NCBI RefSeq assembly: GCF_014207185.1
Contig: NZ_JACHCP010000004.1
Location: 62,001 to 126,000, forward strand
Reading direction: 5' to 3'
Origin: Rhodanobacter sp. A1T4
Lineage (GTDB): Bacteria; Pseudomonadota; Gammaproteobacteria; Xanthomonadales; Rhodanobacteraceae
DNA length: 64,000 nt
Both the position numbers and the translations under genes were made by a program. The notes below the pieces were generated by a model. The model did no database searches and was not told where the DNA came from. It worked only from the letters and a program-made list of their open reading frames with translations. Each line of letters opens with the position of its first letter. The first letter of the stretch is position 1. This document shows positions 25,622 to 62,017 of the stretch, piece after piece.

Positions 25622-26509
25622 TTAGGCGGCTCGCGCCACCGTGCCCTGTTCGCGCAGGCGCCCGAAATAGACGTCCTCCAGATCCGGCGCTACCGCCTCG
25701 AAACCTTCGCCCGGTTGCGAGTCGGCCAGCACGTGCAACAAGGTGCGGCCGCCGGCGAGGCGGGTGGACAGGATATTCATGCGCGCCCGATAGCCGTCCA
25801 GTTCGGCCTTGTCGATACTGCGGCGCCAGACGCGGCCTTCGAGTGAGCGGATCGCCTCGATCGGCTCGCCACTGAGCAGCACCTGACCCTGCGCGATGAT
25901 GGCCATGCGCGGGCACAGGTCGGTCACGTCCTCGACGATATGGGTCGACAGAATCACCACCACGCGCTCGCCGATTTCCGCCAGCAGGTTGAGGAAGCGG
26001 TTGCGTTCCTCGGGATCGAGCCCGGCCGTGGGTTCGTCGACAATGACCAGCCTTGGATCGCCGATCAGCGCCTGCGCGATGCCAAAGCGCTGGCGCATGC
26101 CGCCGGAGTAGGTACCAAGCTTGCGCTTGCGAACGTCCCACAGGTTCACCTGCCGCAGCAGCGATTCGACTAGCTCGCGCCGCTCGGCTTTTACGGTAAC
26201 GCCCTTGAGCACGGCAAAGTGATCAAGCATCGCCTCCGCGGAAACTTTCGGATACACGCCAAATTCCTGTGGCAGATAGCCGAGCTTGCGTCGGGTGGCG
26301 TGCTTGTCGGCGAGCAGGTCGACGCCGTCGAGCATGATGCTGCCCGCGTCCGGATCCTGCAGTGTGGCAATCGTGCGCATCAAAGACGACTTGCCCGCGC
26401 CGTTGGGGCCGAGCAGGCCGAACATGCCGTGCGGGATTTCCAGTGACACGCTGCGCAGTGCGCGCACACCGTTGGCGTAAGTCTTCGACAGGTCACGAAT
26501 GGTCAGCAT
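25622..26509 (-). CDS. ABC transporter ATP-binding protein
   Basis: The 295-residue ATPase partners the permease/M1 protein encoded next. Walker A is GPNGAGKSS (about 34-42). The Q-loop region is GYLPQEFGVYP, the signature YSGGMRQR, Walker B LVIVDEPTAGLDPEER and the switch His STHIVED. A C-terminal tail of about 80 residues follows the nucleotide-binding domain. The start MLTIRDLSKTY has AGGAAG upstream; the longer open frame toward 26713 lacks resemblance. It reads away from aceF across a shared 242-base region. Confidence 0.93.
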   Translation of the reverse strand: MLTIRDLSKTYANGVRALRSVSLEIPHGMFGLLGPNGAGKSSLMRTIATLQDPDAGSIMLDGVDLLADKHATRRKLGYLPQEFGVYPKVSAEAMLDHFAVLKGVTVKAERRELVESLLRQVNLWDVRKRKLGTYSGGMRQRFGIAQALIGDPRLVIVDEPTAGLDPEERNRFLNLLAEIGERVVVILSTHIVEDVTDLCPRMAIIAQGQVLLSGEPIEAIRSLEGRVWRRSIDKAELDGYRARMNILSTRLAGGRTLLHVLADSQPGEGFEAVAPDLEDVYFGRLREQGTVARAA

Positions 26510-48502: not shown

Positions 48503-48622
48503 TCAGTGAAAGCCGAGGATCACGCCCAGCAGCAGGGCGCCAATGGCCAGCGACACCCGCAACGGCTCGAAGCTGCGCAGCTCGGCGTTGGGGTCGCGTT
48601 CTCGTGATTCGTTGTTTGGCAT
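48503..48622 (-). CDS. Small single-TM protein, 39 aa
   Basis: The frame encodes 39 residues: a charged N-terminal half (MPNNESRERDPNAELRSFEP) and a single hydrophobic helix (LRVSLAIGALLLGVILGFH) at the C-terminus. GGAG stands eight bases before the ATG, a strong ribosome-binding site. It is the first gene of a minus-strand unit with the 49-residue gene and is divergent from the response regulator gene at 48799, across a 176-base intergenic region. Small proteins of this kind sometimes modulate membrane kinases; that is only a possibility here. Confidence 0.6.
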   Translation of the reverse strand: MPNNESRERDPNAELRSFEPLRVSLAIGALLLGVILGFH

Positions 48623-48798
48623 TGCAAGTCTCCGTGCGTGGTTCACGGTTCCCATCACACATCCCATCCGGGCGCTGGCCCCGGCACAATCGGGCCCGCT
48701 TACCGCTGGGTTATGGCAATACGCGGGCAGTAGGCACATACGGCTTGCGTCGCTGCCATTCGCATAGCACGCTGCGCTCCACCACACAGGAGCGCGCC

Positions 48799-49488
48799 AT
48801 GGGCCGCAGCATTGCCATCGTTGAAGACGAACCGCTGATCCGCGCCAATTACGTCGAGGCGTTGAACCGTTTCGGCTACGACGCACGTGGCTACGGCTCG
48901 AAGCAGGAGGCATCGAGTGCGTTCGCGATGCGCCTGCCGGAGCTGGTGATCATCGATATTGGATTGGGCGACGAGCCCGAGGGTGGCTTCGATCTGTGCC
49001 GCGAGCTGCGCGCCAAATCGTCGACGCTGCCGCTGATTTTCCTCACTGCGCGCGATTCGGACTTCGATGTGATCTCAGGTCTGCGACTCGGTGCCGACGA
49101 CTACCTCAGCAAGGACACCAGCCTGCACCAACTGGCGGCACGCATTGCTGCGCTGTTCCGCCGGATCGAATCGCTCAAGGCGCCGGCCTCCAGTGAAACA
49201 GTGATCCAGCACGGCCCGCTCAAGCTGGAGTCCGAGCGCATGCGCATCACCTGGAACGGCGAGGAAATACCGCTCACCGTCACCGAATTCTGGATGGTGC
49301 ACACGCTGATCCGTTTTCCCGGTCATGTGAAGAATCGCGATCAGCTGATGCGCGAAGCCGAACTCGTGGTCGACGATGCCACCATCACCTCGCACGTCAA
49401 ACGCATCCGCAAGAAATTCATCGCCGTGGCACCGGAGTTCGATGGCATCGAGACGGTGCACGGCGTTGGCTACCGGTGGAAGCCGTGA
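48799..49488 (+). CDS. OmpR/PhoB-type response regulator
   Basis: The 229-residue protein has a receiver domain (acidic pair in IVEDEPL, phospho-Asp53 in VIIDIGLGD, Lys in ADDYLSKDTS) and a C-terminal winged helix (about 140-229: LTVTEFWMVHTLIRFPGHV, then SHVKRIRKKF). The usual Lys-Pro of receivers is replaced by Lys-Asp (SKDTS). The overall sequence resembles the regulators annotated in other proteobacteria with the 'dedicated sortase system' (TIGR03787); I give this from memory and no sortase is seen here. AGGAG precedes the ATG. The stop overlaps the next start, in a four-gene operon. Confidence 0.9.
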   Translation: MGRSIAIVEDEPLIRANYVEALNRFGYDARGYGSKQEASSAFAMRLPELVIIDIGLGDEPEGGFDLCRELRAKSSTLPLIFLTARDSDFDVISGLRLGADDYLSKDTSLHQLAARIAALFRRIESLKAPASSETVIQHGPLKLESERMRITWNGEEIPLTVTEFWMVHTLIRFPGHVKNRDQLMREAELVVDDATITSHVKRIRKKFIAVAPEFDGIETVHGVGYRWKP

Positions 49489-50180
49489 TGCACAGGTTAT
49501 TCGTGCTGTTTGCGCTGCTGCTTGCGGTGAGTACGGCGCACGCCGTCGATCAACCTGCCATTGGTCCCGCCGTTGCAGCATCCACTGCGTCGGCCATTCC
49601 GCTGTCGACGTCGCACGCCGCCGCACATCAGCCGTCACACGTGGCCCCGGGCGAGGAGAAGACCGTCATCGTCAGCGGGAATGCGGACGAATCGGTTCCC
49701 GGCTGGTCGATCGTGACGGTGCCTCCGGATGGCTGGGCCAGCGACTGTTGCCAGTACGCCAGGGCCATCGGCGTCAATCTGGTGTTCTACAAGGGTGACT
49801 GGACCGGCAATCCCGACCGCGTGATGGTGCTCAACGTATGGCCACGCAAACTGCCCTCCCTCAAGGCGGAACGGCAGGCTGACCAGACGCAATATCTGAA
49901 GAAAGATCCGAAAGCCACCGTGAGTTCGTTCGCGGTCAGCGGCACGGCGATGACCTGCGATGGTGTGCTCTATCAGGGTGCCGATCACGTGGATGACGCG
50001 GTGGTGTTTTGCGATCCCGGCAAGGCTACCGGCATCCACCTGAGCTGGTCGATGACGGTTGCCGCCAACGATCCACAGCGCGCTTCGGTGATAGCGCTGT
50101 TCCGGCAGGTCGTGCAGAAATCGATGTATACGAAATATCGGCGCGGCGACAAATCCACCAGCAGGGCCGAGAAGCCTTAG
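49488..50180 (+). CDS. Hypothetical secreted protein in the two-component operon
   Basis: The 230-residue protein has a signal peptide (MHRLFVLFALLLAVSTAHA) and an Ala/Pro/Ser-rich segment before a folded part from about residue 60. This contains DESVPGWSIVTVPPDGWASD, a CC pair (DCCQYARAIG), and two further cysteines (AMTCDGVLYQ, VFCDPGKATG). I do not recognise the family. The ATG shares one base with the stop of the response regulator gene (TGATG). The operon position suggests an envelope role linked to the VanW/GT-like protein and the kinase, by inference only. Confidence 0.65.
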   Translation: MHRLFVLFALLLAVSTAHAVDQPAIGPAVAASTASAIPLSTSHAAAHQPSHVAPGEEKTVIVSGNADESVPGWSIVTVPPDGWASDCCQYARAIGVNLVFYKGDWTGNPDRVMVLNVWPRKLPSLKAERQADQTQYLKKDPKATVSSFAVSGTAMTCDGVLYQGADHVDDAVVFCDPGKATGIHLSWSMTVAANDPQRASVIALFRQVVQKSMYTKYRRGDKSTSRAEKP

Positions 50181-50189
50181 CCGCACGCC

Positions 50190-52094
50190 ATGTCCGACCT
50201 GAAAAACTTGCCGACGCGCGTCAGCTCCGCTGGATTCTGGCTGCGCTCACATGGGTTGATGTTGTTGCGCGGCTGGCGCAATCGGATCGATGCAAAAGCG
50301 CGCCGCTGGACATCGGGCAACACGCTGTTGGATGCGCCTATACGTGCGCAGGTGCGTACAATGCTGTGGACAAATGAGCGAGACGACGAGTTCCTGTTGA
50401 CAGCTGGCAAGGTGCATAACCTTCGGTTGGCTGCCATACGATTTCATGCCATCGAGATCCCGGCAGGCGAGTGCCTGAGTTTCTGGCAGCAGCTTGGTCG
50501 ACCGTCTGCACGACGGGGTTTCGTGGTCGGCCGTGAGCTTCGGGAGGGCTGCGTCATACCTGCATTGGCTGGTGGTATTTGTCAGATATCCAATGCGCTG
50601 GCCACCGCGGCGCAACGTGCTGGCTTCGAACTGGTCGAGCATCACGCGCACAGCGCTCGCGTGGTGCCCGAGTCGGATCACACGGCGGATGATCACATCA
50701 ATGCCACCGTATTCTGGAACTACGTCGACTTGAAGATCTGTGCGCCGGTGGCATGGCGTCTCGAGCTGACACTCAGTGCGACTGATCTGGTGCTAACCAT
50801 TCGTTCCGCATCAGCCGTGCCTCACACATCAAACCGCAACACGCCCAAAGTCATGGTGCCGAATACAGGCAAAGTCTCCGGCGCAGAAGTACGCAATTGC
50901 CTGAGCTGTGACCAAGTTTCGTGTTTCCGTCATCGGCCACCAACGACTTTGCTGCGCGGGCGCACTGCATGGCTGCTGGATGCATGGACACCCGAATTTG
51001 CACGCTATCTGTCGGCTCAGTCAAACGATGTCGATGGGTTTTTGCCGACGAAGGCACGCCAATGGTTGCCTTCGTTTTCCTGGCTTTTATACAGCGCCGA
51101 AGCGAATGAGGAATCTCCAGCTCATTTGCGAAGGAAAAAAATCCACTGCGTGCATTGGGCAAGTCTGCGCCGCCGTTTGTGGCAACGACGCTGGGCGCGT
51201 TACGCCGGTCGACGACAGGCTAGCGTGATAGACGGTCAGCGCTGGTTGGCGCAGGCCTATGCGCGGAAACTTCGGCCTGAGCATACGCACCTGCTGATTG
51301 ATCAAGGTCTGCTGTCGCACTTGCAGCAGATGGGTGCGTTGGGCGGGCGCACTTATGATGTGCTGGCCACTTCGCTGCCGATGGAAGAGATTCAGCGTCG
51401 CCTCGACCACGCACATCGACACAGCGACAACAGCGCGCCAGCGGCAGCTACGTTGAATGATTTCAGGGTCGACCCCGTCATTGCAGCCAGCGAAACCGAC
51501 GCAATGCTGGCGGCCCGAAGGGTCATCACTGCGCATGCGGAGGTCGCGGCGTACTGGCGTGCAGCCGCTGCGCGGGATGTTCTACAAATCCCATGGGTTT
51601 TGCCGGTCGCATTCGCACGTGCGGCGACGGCTGTTGGCGGCGGTGTCAGTCGCTTTCCGCTGGTGGTGTTTCCTGCCAGCGCGTTGGCACGCAAGGGCGC
51701 CTGTGAATTGGCGCAGGCAATGCGCGGGCAGCAGGCTCGGATACGCGTGCTCGGTTCACCATCCAGCGATGTTTCGCTATGGCAGGGCGTGCAGGTTGAG
51801 CATTCGGGTTACGCGAGCGACTGGATCGCAGATGCCGATGTCGTGGTGCTGCCTGCATATATTGAACATGCGCCGCGCGCAGCATTGAGAGCGGTGGCGG
51901 CTGGTATTCCGGTTATCGCCACGCCGGCGTGTGGACTGCAAGGTTTGCCTGGCGTCACCCTCGTTCCGGCTGGCGATGTCGCGGCACTTCGGGCTGCACT
52001 CAGTCAAGCGCTGTCGATGCTGGCCGGTAGGCGAAATCAGTATGACAATGCGGCGGCCATGCATGCATCCTGCCCTGTGTCCGTATTGCCATGA
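50190..52094 (+). CDS. VanW-domain protein fused to a glycosyltransferase-like domain
   Basis: The 634-residue protein has two parts. Residues about 60-215 are a VanW-like domain with GGICQISNALATAAQRAGFE near 128-147 and EHHAHSARVVPESDHT. The C-terminal part (about 470-620) looks like the C-domain of a GT-B glycosyltransferase (WIADADVVVLPAYIEHAPRA, then AALRAVAAGIPVIATPACGL, QGLPGV). The middle is less clear. VanW occurs in vancomycin-resistance clusters with unknown biochemistry. No signal peptide is seen. The stop overlaps the kinase start (ATGA). The split of the regulator and kinase by this gene is notable. Confidence 0.7.
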   Translation: MSDLKNLPTRVSSAGFWLRSHGLMLLRGWRNRIDAKARRWTSGNTLLDAPIRAQVRTMLWTNERDDEFLLTAGKVHNLRLAAIRFHAIEIPAGECLSFWQQLGRPSARRGFVVGRELREGCVIPALAGGICQISNALATAAQRAGFELVEHHAHSARVVPESDHTADDHINATVFWNYVDLKICAPVAWRLELTLSATDLVLTIRSASAVPHTSNRNTPKVMVPNTGKVSGAEVRNCLSCDQVSCFRHRPPTTLLRGRTAWLLDAWTPEFARYLSAQSNDVDGFLPTKARQWLPSFSWLLYSAEANEESPAHLRRKKIHCVHWASLRRRLWQRRWARYAGRRQASVIDGQRWLAQAYARKLRPEHTHLLIDQGLLSHLQQMGALGGRTYDVLATSLPMEEIQRRLDHAHRHSDNSAPAAATLNDFRVDPVIAASETDAMLAARRVITAHAEVAAYWRAAAARDVLQIPWVLPVAFARAATAVGGGVSRFPLVVFPASALARKGACELAQAMRGQQARIRVLGSPSSDVSLWQGVQVEHSGYASDWIADADVVVLPAYIEHAPRAALRAVAAGIPVIATPACGLQGLPGVTLVPAGDVAALRAALSQALSMLAGRRNQYDNAAAMHASCPVSVLP

Positions 52095-54118
52095 GCTTGC
52101 GCCAAAAACTATTACTGGTCGCGCTGTGCACGCTGGCGTTGCCGGTTGCCGGCTGGCTGTATGTGCGGCAGATGGAAACGCTGTTGCGCGAGGGGCAGGC
52201 CGATGCCTTGCTCGCCTCGGCACGGGCCGTGGCGCGCAGTCTGGTGGTGACCGGCGCGGTGCTGCCGGAGGATGCCAGCGGCTGGTATGTACAGGAGGCG
52301 ACCAGTCCGATCACGGTGGATGGTTACGGCGACGACTGGGCACCGCTGACGCCATGGAGTCAGTCGCTCGGATCATCACCGAATTCGCGCGGCAAGCTGC
52401 TGTTGGCGCAAGACAGCGATTGGCTTTACCTGTACGCCGATATTCGCGATACCCGTCGCACGCGCGCCGATGCCGACGATGCGAATGCACTGGCAGCCGA
52501 TCATCTGATCCTGACGCTGGCGAATGCGACGGGTAAGCAGCGCTATCTGTTGGCTAGCGCCGCACCCGGTCCATTGACGGCACGTCCGCTTGATCCACCG
52601 GTGGCCGGTTTCCCCGACCCACTCACAGCGCAATGGCAGGAAGACGGCAGTGGTTATCGGGTCGAGCTGCGCTTGCCGCGCAGTTTGAAACTACGTGCGC
52701 TGGGCGTGGGCGTGTACGACGCATCCGCCGGCGGCGATCCGATGGCGGCCGACACACGGCCCTTACTCGCTTATTCCACGACGCTTTCCAGCGAACTGGC
52801 CAGGCTCGCACCGGACGAAGTACAGGCGCGTGTGCTGGCGCCTCAGGGCTGGCTGTTGGGCCGCAGCGGCCGATTGAACACAGCCCCGGGCACTGACGGC
52901 CAGCCGGGATGGTTCGCTTCGATCATCTATCGCTCGCTGCTGGGCAAGCGACTGGAAGATGCCAACCTGTGGTCGCAAGATGTGCCGCGATTGGATACGC
53001 GCGAAGTCGTTCGTGCCAGCGCCGGCAAACCGGTCAGTGTGTGGCGCAGTGGCGAGGAGCGCGGCAGCGTGGTGCTGGCCGCGGCCGTGCCGATCGGGCA
53101 GGGAGGGAAGATCAATGGCGTGCTGCTGCTGGAACAGGCCAGCCGTACTGTGCCACTGCTGGCGAATCGCGCGCTGCTGGGGCTGCTGCTTACCAGTTTC
53201 GGGGTGCTGCTGGTCGCTGGCGGAATACTGCTGGCATTTGCTACCCGGCTCAGCCTGCGCCTCGGCCGGTTACGCAATGCAGCCGAGCGCGCGCAGCTCA
53301 ACGATGGACGTCTGGACGGCCTCTTCGAAAATGGCCGTTTCCCGATGACCGATGCGGTCGACGAGATCGGCGACCTGGCGCGCAGCTTCGAAAAGCTGTT
53401 CGAACTGGTTGGCAGCTACACCGACTACCTGCGCACGCTGGCGTCCAAGCTTTCGCACGAACTCAACACGCCGCTGGCGATCGTCAAATCGTCGCTGGAC
53501 AACCTGGAACATGCGTCGATGGCGCCCGAAGCTCAGCCATACCTCGAGCGCGCTCGCGACGGCGTGGCGCGACTGGGGGCGCTGGTGAGGGCGATGAGCG
53601 AGTCCAGCCGCATGGAACGATCGATCACCACGGCCGAACCCGAAGATGTGGACTTGCGCGACGTGGTGCGCGGCTGCGCGGATGCCTACCGTGCGCTGAT
53701 CGGTGCACGCCGGCTCGACTGCGTGTTGCCCGATGCACCGCTCACCCTGCATTGCGCGCCCGAACTGATCGCGCAGGCGCTGGATAAATTGTTCGATAAC
53801 GCGCTGTCATTCACGCCCGAACAAGGCTGGCTGCGATTGACCCTGCGACCGATCGAAGGCGGCGCGCAAATTGAACTAGCCAATCAGGGGACGCTGCTGC
53901 CTGAAGCCATGCAGGGCCGATTGTTCGATACGCTGGTCAGCCTGCGCGACAAGGCCACGCCGGGGGACGTGCCGCATCTGGGCCTGGGTCTCTATGTGGT
54001 GCGACTGGTCGCCGAGCGCCATAACGGCATCGCTACCGCCCACAATCTCGGCGACGGCAGCGGCGTGGCTTTTACGTTGCAGCTGCATGGCATGGCGCGG
54101 CAGCGTCTGGGCGGCTAA
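52091..54118 (+). CDS. Sensor histidine kinase with CBM9-like periplasmic domain
   Basis: The 675-residue protein has an N-terminal TM helix (LLLVALCTLALPVAGWLYVR), a long periplasmic region of about 330 residues and a second TM helix (LLGLLLTSFGVLLVAGGILL). A HAMP-like linker follows, then HisKA with His456 in KLSHELNTPLAIVKSSL and HATPase with DKLFDNALSF (N box) and LGLGLYVVRLV (G box). The periplasmic segment (DGYGDDWAPL, DSDWLYLYADIRDTR) resembles the CBM9 carbohydrate-binding fold. It is the likely partner of the regulator at 48799. Resemblance to the kinases annotated TIGR03785 is recalled, not computed. Confidence 0.88.
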   Translation: MSLRQKLLLVALCTLALPVAGWLYVRQMETLLREGQADALLASARAVARSLVVTGAVLPEDASGWYVQEATSPITVDGYGDDWAPLTPWSQSLGSSPNSRGKLLLAQDSDWLYLYADIRDTRRTRADADDANALAADHLILTLANATGKQRYLLASAAPGPLTARPLDPPVAGFPDPLTAQWQEDGSGYRVELRLPRSLKLRALGVGVYDASAGGDPMAADTRPLLAYSTTLSSELARLAPDEVQARVLAPQGWLLGRSGRLNTAPGTDGQPGWFASIIYRSLLGKRLEDANLWSQDVPRLDTREVVRASAGKPVSVWRSGEERGSVVLAAAVPIGQGGKINGVLLLEQASRTVPLLANRALLGLLLTSFGVLLVAGGILLAFATRLSLRLGRLRNAAERAQLNDGRLDGLFENGRFPMTDAVDEIGDLARSFEKLFELVGSYTDYLRTLASKLSHELNTPLAIVKSSLDNLEHASMAPEAQPYLERARDGVARLGALVRAMSESSRMERSITTAEPEDVDLRDVVRGCADAYRALIGARRLDCVLPDAPLTLHCAPELIAQALDKLFDNALSFTPEQGWLRLTLRPIEGGAQIELANQGTLLPEAMQGRLFDTLVSLRDKATPGDVPHLGLGLYVVRLVAERHNGIATAHNLGDGSGVAFTLQLHGMARQRLGG

Positions 54119-61974: not shown

Positions 61975-62017
61975 ATGCTGCTGATGATCGACAACTTACG
62001 ACAGCTTCGCCTTCAAC
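61975..62017 (+). pseudogene. trpG: Fragment of trpG (5' end), frameshifted
   Basis: These 43 bases match the first 42 bases of the intact trpG start (63633-63674) at 39 positions, with one extra C. The frame begins ATG CTG CTG ATG ATC GAC as in trpG, but the extra base after GACAA leads to a stop at 62023-62025. Removing it restores [14 protein letters not shown]. The similarity stops abruptly just after this. It is a broken partial copy, 13 bases from the end of the sulfotransferase gene. Confidence 0.75.

Follow-up and report, generated by a model that had tools for sequence, protein, structure and literature searches.

A conserved regulator-kinase pair with optional cargo genes in Rhodanobacter, and its likely kinship with CreBC-type peptidoglycan-stress systems

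Introduction

Among two-component systems with a link to peptidoglycan, the nearest known counterparts of the locus presented here are CreBC/BlrAB of E. coli, Aeromonas and P. aeruginosa, whose regulon is marked, in the parts of the reports available to us, by creD, by beta-lactamase genes and by a TTCAC-N6-TTCAC tag (PMC4689548, PMC3660660). The cell-wall stress kinases of WigKR and VxrAB are alike by description, the accessible part of the WigKR report giving a role in cell-wall damage (PMC5786531). Here we analyze a four-gene operon of Rhodanobacter sp. A1T4, encoding an OmpR-type response regulator, a secreted protein, a fusion of a VanW domain with a glycosyltransferase (GT) and a sensor histidine kinase. 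It lies in a window of 64,000 nucleotides (nt), positions 62,001 to 126,000 of contig NZ_JACHCP010000004.1 of a draft genome in 31 contigs (GCF_014207185.1), and all positions below are those of the window.

Two further systems invite comparison. The VanB-type operon contains VanR, VanS and VanW; it resembles the present locus in joining a VanW-like gene to a two-component system, and differs from it in that no vanH, vanB or vanX was seen here and that VanW is here fused to a GT. The second is the dedicated sortase system defined by families TIGR03784, TIGR03785 and TIGR03787. Concerning VanW itself, the accessible part of a recent report describes the VanW domains of C. difficile LdtCd4 and LdtCd5 as L,D-transpeptidases (PMC12729407). 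In a literature search whose coverage leaves out most subscription journals, we found no paper joining VanW with a glycosyltransferase, a sortase and a histidine kinase, and none on a "proteobacterial dedicated sortase" or "dedicated sortase system"; TIGR03785 and TIGR03787 were not found, TIGR03784 alone being mentioned, and the titles listed for VanW fused to glycosyl- domains were off-topic.

The conserved core is a regulator-kinase pair

All four genes are on the forward strand: the regulator (48799-49488, 229 amino acids, aa), the secreted protein (49488-50180, 230 aa), the VanW-GT fusion (50190-52094, 634 aa) and the kinase (52091-54118, 675 aa). By direct inspection, the first two are joined by TGATG at 49486-49490, a 9-base gap (50181-50189) separates the second from the third, and the kinase start overlaps the VanW-GT stop by 4 nt in ATGA (52091-52094), so that the overlapping or nearly overlapping stops and starts described in the earlier note, which had been made from the sequence alone, were found as given there.

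What is conserved, however, is the regulator-kinase pair and not the four genes. With its sensor part as query, the kinase was found in 90 of the 97 family genomes, and the regulator lies upstream of it in 88 of these 90, that is, in 85 of the 88 upstream stretches inspected plus G000, G020 and G057, whose calls come from the window, L012 and L013; in the two kinase genomes where no upstream regulator was seen (G058, G096) the stretches stop at contig borders. In more distant loci of the class the same order is found in 27 of 30. The pairing of regulator and kinase proposed earlier is thereby borne out. The four genes as a single module were rejected by the family survey, since full-length VanW-GT occurs in only 3/97 genomes and the secreted protein in 40/90, and the earlier idea of a self-contained four-gene unit is likewise not supported, given also that the position of VanW-GT shifts among loci (L041, L045) and that 75 of 80 VanW-GT loci lack the pair. 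Conservation of gene order, proposed as a check, therefore holds for the order of regulator and kinase, whereas the four-gene order is variable and VanW-GT rare.

The regulator scores 358.9 bits against TIGR03787, above the cut-off of 335.7, and the kinase matches TIGR03785 over its whole length with 460.7 bits, under the cut-off of 612.2, which leaves it a TIGR03785-like protein. For both, the runner-up NCBIfam models are CreB and CreC, whose cut-offs are not reached (for the regulator, 163.2 bits against NF008296, cut-off 273). No CreB above cut-off was found in the source genome, where the two best CreB-model matches are nearest BaeR and PhoB. The kinase also matches the ChvG model from residue 303 onward (111.6 bits, cut-off 740 not reached), its membrane-proximal part showing a weak likeness to the ChvG-type stimulus-sensing domain.

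The periplasmic sensor carries a CBM9-like part (residues about 72-206; 52304-52708, +), assigned by homology to sensors that match CBM9_1. Eight of the eight homologous sensors scanned match this model at E <= 0.023, three of them above cut-off, and profile alignment joins the window-type sensors to the CBM9_1-matching ones with 100% probability over 346 columns. The resemblance to a carbohydrate-binding module noted earlier has its support in homologues and the profile link; a CBM9 match of the window sensor itself was obtained neither by direct search nor against solved structures.

A direct-repeat box upstream of the regulator and of cell-wall genes

Between the regulator gene and its divergent neighbor lies a direct repeat, TGGCAATACGCGGGCA (TGGCA-N6-GGGCA; 48714-48729, +), a candidate binding site of the regulator. 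Its presence before the regulator gene is a new observation. It consists of two 5-mers with an 11-bp period, the exact pattern being at 48715-48729. Among 92 regulator upstream regions, which include several from the same species, the 16-mer GGGCAAAACGCGGGCA recurs with <=3 mismatches in 61 and with <=5 in 86. The strict pattern is present in 83 of the 97 family genomes, usually in 1-3 copies, and is commoner than its reversed control. In the source genome there are exactly two strict sites, one 5' of the regulator gene and one 5' of the PBP1b gene, and at one mismatch 40 matches vs 11 for the control. Farther out in the class, 8 of 27 regions upstream of the regulator contain TGGCA-N6-TGGCA with at most 1 mismatch, vs 0.5% of 1080 shuffles, other members showing, by eye, similar half-sites 10 bp apart.

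Downstream of the box we read promoter-like elements, TTGCGT - 17 nt - CACGCT (48745-48773, +); no tool called a promoter, and a sigma-70 consensus scan of this region gave none. CACGCTGC and GGCTTGCG occur in 37/92 and 31/92 regulator upstream regions, respectively. The window also holds two further TGCCCGCGNNNNGCC matches, at 51716-51730 (-) and 25901-25915 (-), where 0.22 are expected; the first is perhaps due to chance, because it lies inside the VanW-GT gene.

Among the 30 nearest genomes, mrcB (PBP1b) has a box score >= 10 in 14, vs 2% of 600 shuffles, and the control gene mrcA in 2. Across kinase-bearing genomes the figure for mrcB is 31/83, with 30 of the 31 in one orientation and 18 placed at -145 to -150, within 6 bp of each other (the survey leaves out 7 of the 97 regions); the box sits in the intergenic stretch, ahead of elements that we read as promoter-like. 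For creD, 12 promoters out of a set of 30 that includes two loci with misplaced starts score >= 10 vs 1.4% of shuffles, the best matches clustering near -106, and none of the genes read upstream of creD is creC-like. Three beta-lactamase genes of relatives, one of class A and two of B3 type, also stand behind boxes (in G051, G072 and G026). Single box-like sites were seen at murJ of the source genome, with one mismatch and in this one genome, and, by our reading of the sequence, 86 nt 5' of a dxs-like gene (L495, in G086).

A peptidoglycan-stress reading

Since the boxes precede creD and beta-lactamase genes, their geometry is like that of the published tag, as far as the accessible text describes it, and no CreB reaches its cut-off, we read the pair as CreBC-like and the operon as autoregulated. 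On balance we favor a CreBC/BlrAB-like peptidoglycan-stress system with optional cargo, labelled sortase-linked by mistake. With CreBC/BlrAB it has in common an OmpR-type regulator, two 5-mers 11 bp apart, boxes that in some relatives stand 5' of creD and beta-lactamase genes, and the link to peptidoglycan; it differs in the letters of the box (TGCCC/TGGCA instead of TTCAC-N6-TTCAC), in staying below the CreB and CreC model cut-offs, in having no creBC beside creD in the loci read, and in its extra CBM9-like sensor, mrcB target and operon cargo. ChvG shares with the kinase the part from residue 303, the score remaining below the ChvG cut-off.

The mechanism that we propose from these data is as follows. 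The kinase would sense the periplasm through its CBM9-like domain and its ChvG/CreC-like membrane-proximal part, and the phosphorylated regulator would bind TGGCA-N6-GGGCA (on the other strand, TGCCC-N6-TGCCA), raising its own operon and so producing an autoregulated transcript. In the same or related genomes it would act on mrcB, creD and, in few of them, beta-lactamase genes. Genes placed between regulator and kinase would ride this transcript, the secreted cysteine protein in many Rhodanobacteraceae and VanW-GT in few.

Several observations weigh against this reading. Scores stay below 10 at 52 of 83 mrcB and 18 of 30 creD promoters, 21 of 30 inspected box loci of the source genome and 12 of 20 fetched from relatives lie inside genes, as chance would give, and the beta-lactamase boxes are single-genome cases. 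The position weight matrix derives from the sites of the regulator itself, and the related genomes are not independent. A search of the source genome found no creD, and of four other genus members scored, G067 and G039 have a creD box and G052 and G093 none. Among kinase-less genomes, one of seven scores narrowly above 10 at mrcB, and G086, with no kinase match, has a strong creD box (the regulator was not searched genome-wide there). A different OmpR-type regulator might be the one that recognizes the box. PBP1a (mrcA), suggested as a conserved target by one site in G042, was rejected, its 2/30 being the shuffle level, which counts on the same side. Finally, in the parts of the reports available, the canonical CreBC of S. 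maltophilia, beside creD, represses creD (PMC4689548, PMC5402928).

If the reading is true, a pair annotated as sortase-linked in many genomes becomes a cell-wall sensor with a testable operator and targets, and Xanthomonadaceae without CreBC gain a way of passing a cell-wall damage signal on to PBP1b, creD and, in part of them, beta-lactamase genes.

The VanW-GT fusion and the secreted protein are optional cargo

Both genes between regulator and kinase are optional cargo of the operon. The secreted protein has a hydrophobic N-terminus and conserved cysteines (DCC, C157, C175), with no match to Pfam or NCBIfam at E <= 0.1. Its homologues lie between regulator and kinase in 38 of 88 inspected stretches and in G000 and G020, which makes 40/90; where the gene is missing the gap has a median of 134 nt (47 loci). 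One gap holds two copies (L249, in G095), another a gene that we read by eye as Crp/Fnr-like (L217, in G077) and a third a different, uncharacterised gene (L226, in G032).

VanW-GT belongs to a separate, widespread family. VanW (PF04294, 83.1 bits, cut-off 27) and Glyco_trans_1_4 (PF13692, 44.6 bits) both match above cut-off, and the C-terminal part is a complete GT-B fold (residues 256-615; 50955-52034, +) with the two Rossmann domains and sugar-donor site of the GT4 type, confirming the earlier suggestion of a VanW domain with a GT-like C-terminus. Fold comparison places it near WaaG and PglA among others, the rows covering model residues 255-617, that is, the GT part without the VanW region. 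The VanW domain (residues 74-200; 50409-50789, +) has C121, C131 and H154 kept in 79/79 VanW-GT sequences, C131 and H154 being candidates for the Cys and His of an LdtCd4-type triad. Between the two parts stands a cluster, C237-x2-C240-x4-C245-x2-H248 (50898-50933, +), with each Cys in 79/79 and H248 in 52/79. Judged by hydropathy only, no hydrophobic segment that could act as an export signal is present in the first 60 residues, in 78/78 loci and in the window. The fusion shares with LdtCd4/LdtCd5 the VanW domain, here with conserved Cys and His residues, and differs in lacking an export signal, in its added Cys cluster and GT-B domain, and in an activity that is so far a prediction.

When species genomes were scanned, 131 relatives were confirmed, 80 of which were kept as loci for neighborhood counts; they come from Pseudomonadota, Acidobacteriota, Verrucomicrobiota, Cyanobacteriota, Myxococcota and one Bacteroidota bin. 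Neighboring genes here, as at the box, creD and sortase loci, were called with a simple custom gene finder. Regulator and kinase stand beside VanW-GT in 5 of the 80 loci, all Rhodanobacteraceae: L042, L052 and L059 have the gene order of the window, L041 has regulator, VanW-GT, secreted gene and kinase, and L045 has VanW-GT between regulator and kinase with no secreted gene. In the tree most pair-associated VanW-GT proteins group beside Variovorax proteins with weak support (90, not starred), that of Dokdonella standing apart. In Variovorax (L043-L058 and others) an upstream DUF6891 gene overlaps VanW-GT by 4 nt in most loci called. L103, titled Mycobacterium sp. KBS0706, matches Inquilinus limosus closely in VanW-GT and its neighbors, so its name may be wrong.

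A gene from one and the same cluster adjoins VanW-GT in eight loci, directly 3' and often overlapping in L073, L080, L084, L085, L086, L089 and L108, and directly 5' in L119; the two members tested by Pfam are both YkuD L,D-transpeptidase-like. We count these eight loci, two of them confirmed by Pfam, in favor of the peptidoglycan-stress reading. VanW-GT is probably a cytosolic modifier of cell-wall precursors. Its VanW cysteine would act on the peptide portion of such a precursor, or of a recycled muropeptide, while a sugar would be the substrate of the GT-B domain; this chemistry, taken alone, is the least certain element of our proposal and is put forward tentatively. If it is true, a widespread uncharacterised family gains a concrete setting, its VanW relatives having recently been described as transpeptidases in the portion of that work available.

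A competing explanation, with a substantial but less than even chance, is that VanW-GT is a wandering passenger, functionally unconnected with the sensor, that chanced to land in an operon which is either constitutive or inducible. Its rarity in the family, the many unrelated neighborhoods elsewhere and its shifting position within the operon all agree with this, as does its GC content at third codon positions (0.62 vs 0.74-0.80 for the neighbors), which fits a later arrival. On the other side, all five Rhodanobacteraceae loci of the genome scan have it between regulator and kinase, and the window gene is linked to both of its neighbors, by the 9-nt gap and the 4-nt overlap.

In its most extended form, which we consider doubtful, the peptidoglycan-stress reading would make the pair an undescribed system across Gammaproteobacteria with its own operator, TGGCA-N6-K/TGGCA, governing PBP1b and creD in Xanthomonadaceae; the regulator-kinase gap would serve to take in genes of cell-wall effectors, and VanW-GT would be a new cytosolic two-headed enzyme trimming or acylating the peptide and glycosylating the same precursor.

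Sortase linkage and glycan sensing as less probable readings

The families of the pair carry a sortase label, and the earlier observation that regulator and kinase resemble the sortase-linked families with the sortase absent agrees with our searches. A sortase partner in the source genome, a draft of 31 contigs, was rejected: there is no TIGR03784 match at E <= 1e-10, and PF04203 gave two fragments only, both under cut-off. With the dedicated sortase system the locus shares a regulator above cut-off, a kinase homologous throughout its length and, in relatives, a kindred box 5' of the regulator; it differs in having no sortase in the genome, a kinase under cut-off and genes inserted between regulator and kinase.

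Among 274 class genomes, sortase and kinase are linked only in part: the kinase is found in 57, the TIGR03784 sortase in 39 and both in 31, the two being <=12 kb apart in 17 of these 31; for the other 14 linkage cannot be judged because they lie on different contigs. This co-occurrence, together with the TIGR03787 score, speaks for a Pds-type sortase regulator which has lost its sortase and now controls the display of surface proteins or polysaccharide, the mrcB and creD boxes belonging to another regulator. We regard this as improbable, since 26 of the 57 kinase-bearing genomes show no sortase match, a box search at 10 sortase loci gave nothing consistent, and boxes do occur at cell-wall synthesis genes.

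Least probable is sensing of glycan or exopolysaccharide, in which the CBM9-like sensor would bind a sugar polymer and VanW-GT, with its GT-B fold near WaaG and PglA, would build a surface glycan: no polysaccharide cluster was called around the operon, whose neighbors include, by our reading, rpe- and trpE-like genes, VanW fits poorly, and the box targets are peptidoglycan genes, so that the "glycan sensing" suggested earlier would be put more exactly as a link to peptidoglycan synthesis.

Other features of the locus

RNA family models gave no gathering-score match in the window, and no tRNA was called. Upstream of the box, on the reverse strand, a small divergent open reading frame (48503-48622, -) encodes a candidate membrane peptide of 39 aa, MPNNESRERDPNAELRSFEPLRVSLAIGALLLGVILGFH, with a hydrophobic segment at residues 20-38. 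By pattern search a similar frame is present in 43 of the 70 family loci whose upstream stretch is >=350 nt, and in 0 of 27 class loci. These frames, of 37-40 aa with one hydrophobic segment, share a promoter region with the regulator gene, and their product is possibly a small-membrane-protein modulator of the kinase.

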